Shown: positions 22,339 to 25,465 of the stretch, piece after piece
Position numbering within the stretch: position 1 is the first letter of the stretch
How the letters are laid out: each line of letters begins with the position of its first letter
NCBI RefSeq assembly: GCF_021134715.1
Contig: NC_060020.1
Span: 4,898,001-4,962,000, forward strand
Source of the DNA: Daphnia pulex
Taxonomy: Eukaryota > Arthropoda > Branchiopoda > Diplostraca > Daphniidae
Reading direction: 5' to 3'
DNA: 64,000 nucleotides
Translations under genes and position numbers: made by a program
Notes under the pieces: generated by a model
The model's database searches: none
Seen by the model: the letters and a program-made list of their open reading frames with translations, nothing else
What the model was told of the DNA's origin: nothing

Positions 22339-22529
22339 TTTCAATTTTCACTTTTTACTTCACAAAATCGTGTTTTACAATTTTGTCTTTGCTAAACAAC
22401 AAAGCATTATTATTATCTAAACAACACTGTCGACTGTCGCACTCTGCTCGTCCTCGTCTGCTGTCGCGATTTTTGAGCCTACAGACGAACTTTCGCGACA
22501 ACTGTAGTATAGTCAAATTGGCGATTTGA

Positions 22530-23648
22530 CCCCAAACAAATTATTACCTGAATTTTTGTTCGTGAGCACTGTGTGTACTATAAAAATGTAGTTATTTTTA
22601 AAATACTAGTTAAAACTATCGTGTAGAACATGTATAAATCGTGATTTGAAATTTTATTTCCCGTGTAAATATTCTTTCTTGTTGAAATAAACCATTTAAA
22701 AAAATATTAAATTTTAGAAAATCTTTCATTCTATAAGTACCCAACTTTTTGTGCAGTTATAACGAGATTTAGTATTTTAAAAAAAATTAAACGTAAAACC
22801 CAATTTTTTTCCCCCGCGAAAAAGTGTTTCCGTATTTAACACAGCCGCTTATGGGAAAATGGGTTTTTTTAAAAACAGTATTTACATGACATCTTAGCAC
22901 ATAGAAATCCCCCCTTGGGTTCATTTTATAGCTAAAGAGTCATTCTATCTTATTCATTTATATTTATTCAAAAGGGGACATTCGTTTAGAAGTTATAACC
23001 GATATTCTAGGCCCTAATTTTGCATATTTTCCAAGTGTTTTGCATTAGTGAGTAACACACCCGCTTGGAGTGCAGCCCCTTCTAGCGGAGAGCGGCTGTG
23101 CTAATCACCACCAAGCGGGTGTGTTACTCACTAATGCAAAACACTTGGAAAATATGCAAAATTAGGGCCTAGAATATCGGTTATAACTTCTAAACGAATG
23201 TCCCCTTTTGAATAAATATAAATGAATAAGATAGAATGACTCTTTAGCTATAAAATGAACCCAAGGAAGGATTTCTATGTGCTAAGATGTCATGTAAATA
23301 CTGTTTAAAAAAAAACCCATTTTCCCATAAGCGGCTGTGTTAAATACGGAAACACTTTTTCGCGGGGGAAAATATTGGGTTTTACGTTTAATTTTTTTTT
23401 AAATACTAAATATCGTTATAACTGCACAAAAAGTTGGGTACTTATAGAATGAAAGATTTTCTAAAATTTAATATTTTTTTAAATGGTTTATTTCAACAAG
23501 AAAGGATATTTACACGGGAAATAACATTTCAAATCACGATTTATACATGTTCTACACGATAGTTTTAACTAGTATTTTAAAAATAACTACATTTTTATAG
23601 TACACACAGTGCTCACGAACAAAAATTCAGGTAATAATTTGTTTGGGG
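22530..23648. repeat. 1.1-kb near-perfect palindrome (foldback)
   Basis: The arms are 22530-23068 and 23111-23648 (539 and 538 nt), with a 42-nt spacer. They are near-identical, with only small indels and substitutions. The outer ends are CCCCAAACAAATTATTACC and its complement. The arms have no coding potential. The right TIR of the surrounding element carries, at the equivalent place, only a short interrupted dyad (CCC-AAAAAGT-GGG). So the palindrome was either inserted into the left TIR or amplified from such a seed. Transcription across it would give a very long hairpin RNA. Confidence 0.93.
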
Positions 23649-23810
23649 TATGGGGCTCTTCGGGATCTGTTTTATTTAGCCGATTTATCTGGCAACGCAG
23701 CATGGCTCTAGACTTATTTCGAACAATAATGTAATGTCAAAAAATTTTGCTTCTGCATCCCAACAACAAGGCTCTACTAATTTGACAAAAGTGTTTCTTC
23801 TGTGTTGAAA
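23649..23810 (+). repeat. Left inner terminal inverted repeat
   Basis: Reverse-complement match to 25272-25437. It contains GGGCTCTTCGGGATCTG and CTGGCAACGCAGCATGGC in both copies. It forms the 5' flank of the SWIM-like gene, as its partner does for the THAP gene, so the two genes may share promoter sequence. Confidence 0.85.
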
Positions 23811-23835
23811 AATGTGTTTAATGTTTTGAAATATT

Positions 23836-24411
23836 ATGTCTTTATCGAATTATGTTAGTGGGCTTTCAGTAGAAGCCAAAGAAAAATACCTTGATAAATT
23901 GGATATTCTTCAGTGTGATTGCCCTTACAGTTTATCTAAAGATTTGTGGAAACAAGGACTTCAGTGTTGCACAATTATTCCCAAAATAGATCATGGGGAT
24001 ATATTCGCCTACTTAGTTTTCTCCAGAAGTATTATAGATGTGGAGAAAACAAAGAGAGCCTTCAAAGGTCTCAAAGCTGAGTCAAAACAAGCAGTGAACG
24101 ATGGCTGGCTGAAACAATTTATGGCAATGTGTTTGTCATCTGGAGTGGTTTTAGTTAAAGCTAAGGTAACCCCTCAAAGTTGTTTATTATTGACATGAAT
24201 TATATTTTCTGTTCTAATTCACAATTAGGTAACTCCATCTCAAGCTATCAGCAAAACTCCTCACTCACCATGGGCTGCATTAGGTGTTGATGGCTGTGTA
24301 ATATACGCTCATTGTATGGTAATGCTTAATGAAATTTGGGAAAATAAACCAAGAAATTTAAGAATGAGGCCAATGACACTTTATTTCAATCAATCTACAT
24401 ACAAAACTTAA
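23836..24411 (+). CDS. SWIM/YqaJ-type protein, N-terminal part only
   Basis: Exons 23836-24165 and 24229-24411 join in phase 0 (GCTAAG|gtaacc, aattag|GTA) and give 170 aa. The segment KAKVTPSQAISKTPHSPWAA and the following DGCVIYAHCM resemble the region before the SWIM zinc finger in a family of invertebrate proteins that carry SWIM plus a YqaJ-like exonuclease domain. From memory, that family continues with a Cys-Met-Ala-Gly-Leu-Gly motif. Here the reading stops matching at CATTGTATG|gtaatg, a plausible exon end. It then runs 32 more codons to TAA, overlapping the THAP gene stop. So the zinc finger and nuclease part are missing, and the gene is probably a deletion remnant. The family assignment is moderately confident. 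Confidence 0.5.
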
Positions 24412-25248
24412 ACTGAAGCAATTCAACTTGCTTTGTTAACTGAGACACTTGCTCGATCAATCGTAGACGCTGTAATTCTCCTTCGAGATTATCGTCCAGG
24501 TTAGTTGTTGAATTGCTAACTTGTGATGTTGTTAAGCACTCCACAGCAGGAATTGGTATAGGCCTACAGTTAATCTCGTTTCCTTGTAGTAATGCTATTA
24601 AAATTGGAAAAAAGCATTAGGCAAGCAATAAGAAATAAACAAAAATGTAATTACTTTACCACTCTGTGAAGTACTTTCATGGCATAATGAATCTAGATGT
24701 AATGTAGTCTCCGATGGGTTCTCATTGCTGGGAAGTTCACATTCTATGGTTGTGTGTAAACTCTCTTCGCAATTACTTGGAATGCTGTGTTGATCAAGCT
24801 CATCTAATACTTGAAAATGAAATGCTTAACATTGACAAACAGACTTGTAAATTTGTAGTTTGAATATTACCAATCGGCAAAGAATGATCCTGAATTTCAG
24901 AAAGTAGAGGTGAGTCTATTAATTCTAGTGGCTCATCCCCTAACAACAATGATGGCACAAAATCTGGATGCCTCGGGTAGATATCTTTTGCAGGTTTCCC
25001 TAATATAGCACAACAGAGTATGTATTAGCAATAAATAGCAATAACTAGCTTGATAGAATTATACCTCCATAGAAATGCTTTGAGCATATCCAGATTTTAT
25101 TGATTTTGGTATGACGATTAGCTTTTCTACGTTTAATCTTAATCTTGTCAAGCCAAAGCTGACGACGAACACTGTTTTCTGGCAAAGAATACAATTTGAC
25201 ACCATCACTGATCTTACGTCCACACTTAGCAACATTACAAATTCTCAT
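24395..25248 (-). CDS. THAP-domain DNA-binding protein
   Basis: Four exons (25065-25248, 24871-24999, 24660-24803, 24395-24594) join in frame for 218 aa. Residues 1 to about 80 form a THAP zinc finger of the C2CH type: MRICNVAKCG, LYSLPENSVRRQLWLDKI, IWICSKHFYGGKPAKD and HPDFVPSLLLG supply Cys4, Cys9, Cys54 and His57 plus the terminal proline-containing motif. An acidic Ser/Glu-rich middle follows. The C-terminus (ELQRLRLIEQVSQLTKQVELLQF) is a short coiled coil, as in many THAP proteins. The start is ATG at 25246-25248; an upstream frame extension uses only a TTG. THAP domains bind DNA and are used by P-element-type and other transposases. No catalytic domain is present, so this would be the DNA-binding partner or a regulator. 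The intact frame suggests recent activity or selection. Confidence 0.85.
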
Positions 25249-25271
25249 TTCAGTTAACAATCGAAAGAAAA

Positions 25272-25465
25272 TTTCAACACACAAGAAACACTTTAGTCAA
25301 AACAGTAGAGCCTTGCTGTTTGGATTCAGAAGCAAAAATTTTTGACATTACATTATTGTTCTAAATAAGTCTAGAGCCATGCTGCGTTGCCAGATAAATC
25401 GGCTAAATAAAACAGATCCCGAAGAGCCCTATACCCACTTTTTGGGCACAATTTGACTATACTAC
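25272..25465 (-). repeat. Right terminal inverted repeat
   Basis: It includes the outermost 17 bp (25449-25465), the short dyad CCCAAAAAGTGGG just inside it on the minus strand, and the about 165 bp shared with 23649-23810. It leads directly into the THAP gene. Confidence 0.85.

Follow-up and report, generated by a model that had tools for sequence, protein, structure and literature searches.

A 64,000-nucleotide stretch of Daphnia pulex DNA, here called the window, contains two nested elements at 22504-25465. An inner unit carrying a THAP gene is inserted into an unrelated foldback element. We consider it very probable that this unit derives by internal deletion from an ISL2EU-group transposon (Harbinger-like; PHIS superfamily) and is non-autonomous. 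The region comprises the following features, with the evidence for each in brackets.

22505..23649, no strand: left and middle portions of the outer foldback element (inverted repeats, relatives, empty site).
23650..23651, no strand: AT target-site duplication, left copy (flank reading, empty site).
23652..25430, no strand: inner element, very probably an internally deleted non-autonomous ISL2EU-type transposon, 1,779 bp (AT flanks, empty site).
23652..23810, plus strand: left terminal inverted repeat (TIR) of the inner element (inverted pair 94% complementary, matches to the 194-bp query).
23836..24316, plus strand: gene for a YqaJ-domain protein, 5' portion comprising exon 1, an intron and the beginning of exon 2 (continuation in the C8 copy).
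24330..24405, no strand: 76-bp stretch between deletion junctions, found downstream of the YqaJ domain in the C8 copy (95% to C8:4714071-4714146).
24395..25248, minus strand: THAP gene, four hand-spliced exons encoding about 218-220 aa with a THAP domain and a tail (ORFs, Pfam, copy alignment).
25272..25430, minus strand: right TIR of the inner element (inverted pair, matches to the 194-bp query, AT flanks).
25431..25432, no strand: AT target-site duplication, right copy (flank reading, empty site).
25433..25464, no strand: right end of the outer foldback element, split off by the inner insertion (empty site, alignment to the C9 copy).

Repeat finding in the window returned a perfect 17-bp inverted pair (22504-22520 / 25449-25465), a 165-bp inverted pair at 94% (23646-23810 / 25272-25436) and a long near-palindrome that separates the left members of these two pairs. 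Both inverted repeats from which the original prediction had drawn a single unit are present, but they bound two nested elements. We searched the genome (133 Mb, 13 contigs, window copy included) for relatives of the 194-bp right repeat. Its 63 scored matches are a lower bound, as 40 of 142 candidates were scored, and none extends beyond query position 170 except at the repeat's own place. This repeat had been drawn out to 25465; its bases past 25430 are part of the duplication and of the outer element. A single unit spanning 22504-25465 is ruled out by these matches, the AT flanks and the empty site. Because the empty site is kept in a foldback copy on C9 and further relatives span it, the 17-bp "outer ends" are assigned to the foldback element; they are not part of the THAP-bearing inner element.

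The empty-site query consisted of the window flanks joined with one AT (73 bases). At L043, the foldback copy on C9, 72 of the 73 bases aligned, all identical, giving a paralogous empty site with a single AT. Read from this empty site, as had been proposed, the duplication is AT. The site is also spanned without insertion in L042, L046, L049, L050, L057 and L058, at 81-96% identity. Loci L001-L038 were sorted into 19 distinct insertions, five of them with only one recognised end. Eleven of the 14 two-ended insertions measure 224-266 bp; the other three are the window copy and its C9 and C10 counterparts. Read by eye, AT is present on both sides of all 14, outside termini of the form R-GGGCTC...GAGCCC-Y. 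A 3-bp TAT duplication would fit 10 of the 14 sites; AT is the sole reading that fits every one. The flanks, also read by eye, are T|AT|A in 10 cases, T|AT|T in two, and A|AT|T and A|AT|A in one each. The TIRs start with GG at 7/14 left and 3/14 right ends and with AG at the remainder (by eye).

The outer element is about 1.18 kb long, almost wholly inverted repeat, with ends TAGTATAGTCAAATTG, and its relatives are many and diverged. In being almost entirely inverted repeat it resembles non-coding elements of the foldback type. Repeat finding places its arms at 22529-22814/23364-23649 (98%) and 22776-23068/23111-23403 (95%), and the left arm has 38 matches in the genome, the window's own two included. 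The TA at the element's ends may be a duplication. The foldback copy on C9 with the empty site lies at C9:6706853-6708955 and aligns to the outer element, minus the inner one, in pieces that are 95-100% identical. This sister is 2.1 kb long, has an additional internal inverted section and contains no stop-to-stop frame over 60 codons.

Two genes face each other within the inner element. The THAP gene is present, as originally predicted, and lies on the minus strand; its first two exons, joined by hand, match the Pfam THAP domain above the cut-off (E 2.7e-9, 38.1 bits against 23.9). The tail of the protein looks coiled-coil-like. The acceptor AG first chosen for the third exon occurs in the window copy only and gives about 220 residues; a later AG, common to all four aligned copies, would yield a product of 218.

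The plus-strand gene had been described as truncated and SWIM/YqaJ-like. Pfam finds neither YqaJ nor SWIM families in the window ORFs; one of the two plus-strand ORFs has a sub-threshold CATSPERE match, the other none. It is a copy on C8 that ties the gene to YqaJ. From C8:4711902 onward, this copy carries on a single strand the left TIR, a first exon matching that of the window gene (93% at the amino acid level, with two stops) and then a YqaJ domain, decayed and with one stop, that scores above the Pfam cut-off (33.5 bits against 22). Since the shared first exon and this domain lie on one strand in the C8 copy, the window gene is read as a truncated YqaJ-protein gene. The YqaJ part of the description thus stands, and the SWIM part has no Pfam match. 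Further along, the C8 copy gives way to sequence that looks retrotransposon-like.

As had been noted, the two genes face each other and overlap at their stops: the last plus-strand ORF (stop 24409-24411) shares 17 bp with the last minus-strand ORF (stop 24395-24397). This overlap was created at a deletion junction near 24405, which cuts the THAP gene; to the left of the junction the sister copies on C9 and C10 hold other sequence. The alignments thus resolve the window copy into three pieces: the left end together with the first part of the YqaJ gene, a 76-bp piece from the middle, and the THAP part with the right end.

Mobility and the existence of relatives, both anticipated, are borne out by the AT flanks, the empty site and the sister copies on C9 and C10, each about 1.87 kb long, which share their ends with the window copy. 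A 28-bp end pattern with at most 3 mismatches occurs 62 + 61 times genome-wide, and a reversed control 0 + 0 times. Among 100 ends listed of these 123, 66 form 33 pairs, of which 30 measure 206-266 bp and three are larger, at 1,777, 1,863 and 1,870 bp. No pair reaches 3 kb. In the same set, 34 ends, including that of the C8 copy, are without a partner within 12 kb. The second end of a complete element might fall among the 23 remaining ends or be more diverged.

The short pairs make up a MITE family whose ends are those of the inner element (e.g. L012, L021, L026), in which 19 of the 30 pairs are exactly 265 bp long. This uniformity may reflect a recent burst moved in trans. Divergence among the longer copies is uneven, in a mosaic pattern. 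Between the window and C9 copies, the left coding part has 3 differences over 500 aligned sites and the right half 33 over 850. The left TIR of the C10 copy differs from that of the window at 10 of 165 sites and resembles the right-TIR version, as if through gene conversion.

A THAP-only protein could bind the TIRs without cutting and so act as a repressor of transposition, in the manner of the 207-aa KP product of Drosophila P elements. According to PMC7776569, small P elements are often able to encode such repressors. The KP derivative of the P element serves here as a comparison of working principle: it is internally deleted, and its remaining frame holds the THAP part of the transposase. 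The window copy has an open THAP frame of about 220 aa, the TIRs and the THAP region are kept in three copies of about 1.8 kb, and in a half-copy on C11, which diverges after the third exon, THAP exons 1-3 are open too. However, the frame is broken in both sisters, by a frameshift on C9 and two in-frame stops on C10, and is thus open in one of three copies. A maintained THAP-only gene is unsupported for this reason. KP also belongs to another superfamily with a different duplication length, and a repressor role for the window protein is putative. We regard the KP-like explanation as improbable, and a slightly smaller probability still attaches to the product being a working trans-repressor of an ISL2EU transposase, which would be KP-like self-regulation outside the P superfamily. 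If the inner unit is the ISL2EU derivative that we favor, repression of this kind would be compatible with it as an added function, possible but unsupported.

The original prediction proposed that two genes work together in one element, THAP providing recognition and the YqaJ protein doing the cutting, with no catalytic domain on the THAP side. The two genes do face each other between the TIRs, and a DDE gene was not found in the exact family of the window. The rest of the genome argues against it. Pfam places YqaJ at 11 positions (22/22 candidates scored), DDE_Tnp_4 at at least 148 (150/207 scored) and THAP at at least 137 (150/181 scored). A DDE_Tnp_4 place lies within 5 kb of 7 of the 11 YqaJ places and faces it in each case; none was found in another orientation, and the other four have none nearby. 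The chance that any DDE place falls within 5 kb of a random point is about 1%. In C10:4989601-4994572, the one relative read in all its parts, THAP, HTH_Tnp_4 and DDE_Tnp_4 lie on one strand with YqaJ facing them, and in a second relative, L059, DDE faces YqaJ. On this arrangement the cutting need not come from the YqaJ protein. We consider the proposed division of labor highly improbable, the published ISL2EU elements having a DDE transposase as well (PMC4482050). As DDE faces YqaJ in these relatives, and THAP, HTH and DDE share a strand in the first of them, the most fitting reading of the window THAP protein is a transposase N-terminus that has lost its catalytic half.

The relatives with facing DDE and YqaJ are distant from the window family: tblastn of the window proteins against C10:4989601-4994572 and L059 gave nothing significant. 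The segment L059:739-1014 holds a C-x-C...C-x-H-like stretch that resembles a SWIM motif, but it matches no Pfam family, and the SWIM label is putative. The N-terminal exon matches 20 places in the genome. Six of these have a facing DDE within 5 kb (one of them also has a DDE in another orientation), one has only a non-facing DDE, and the remaining 13, among which are the window copy and both its sisters, lack a DDE at that distance. Of the DDE_Tnp_4 places scored, none lies near the C4, C8, C9, C10 or C11 copies of the window family, and with 100 of the 123 ends listed neither a complete copy of the exact family nor its DDE part was found in the genome. The search for longer copies thus yielded the decayed YqaJ domain on C8, but no complete element. 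Full copies with a known transposase, which had been named as a possible refutation, exist as distant relatives and were not found in the exact family.

Pairing of THAP with YqaJ, thought not to be a standard layout, is published for ISL2EU. According to PMC4482050, elements of this group average about 4.8 kb, have TIRs of 6-259 bp that usually start with GG, and produce AT duplications within A|AT|T; one ORF contains DDE, HTH and THAP, and most candidates have a second ORF with YqaJ. PMC9179366 gives the two-ORF layout likewise, with HTH or THAP, and states that, to its authors' knowledge, no ISL2EU activity has been proven. Measured against these descriptions, the window family shares with ISL2EU (PHIS, for PIF/Harbinger-ISL2EU-Spy) the THAP domain, the YqaJ gene, the AT duplication and the TIR length, its TIRs of about 160 bp falling within the reported range. 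Differences can also be observed. The window copy lacks the DDE half and the YqaJ domain and measures 1.8 kb against about 4.8 kb. The A|AT|T flank is seen at 1 of 14 sites; it is reported as conserved and not as the sole definition of the group. TIR starts are mixed GG/AG where GG is usual. The YqaJ domain of the second ORF is present, in decayed form, in the C8 copy and absent from the window copy. Of the first ORF the window family contains THAP, and no DDE was found in its copies; THAP, HTH and DDE occur together on one strand in a distant relative. A P/Galileo-type element, which the THAP domain and long TIRs would suggest (Galileo has a THAP transposase and long TIRs; PMC3688188), is refuted by the duplication length, AT here against the 8 bp given for P-like elements, from a zebrafish element, in PMC7776569; the YqaJ partner in the C8 copy also speaks against this identity, to which we give virtually no probability.

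The ancestor of the inner unit would have had two facing genes: from the right end a transposase with THAP and DDE domains, and from the left end a YqaJ-domain protein. Through internal deletions the DDE half and the YqaJ domain would have been lost, so that what is left is the start of the YqaJ protein and, on the transposase side, an N-terminus with THAP alone. With its TIRs retained, the copy would have been mobilised in trans by transposase made elsewhere, and it inserted into the foldback element with a 2-bp AT duplication. The nested insertion, the AT flanks, the sister copies, the YqaJ domain on C8 and the facing DDE/YqaJ pairs elsewhere in the genome are observed, and the DDE half of the window's exact family and its movement in trans are the steps that we infer.

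The apparently new gene pairing looks like the outcome of internal deletion in an element of known kind. This removes an apparent new transposon layout, as THAP plus YqaJ fits the documented ISL2EU layout after such a deletion, and the empty site provides a clean example of an ISL2EU-group insertion.
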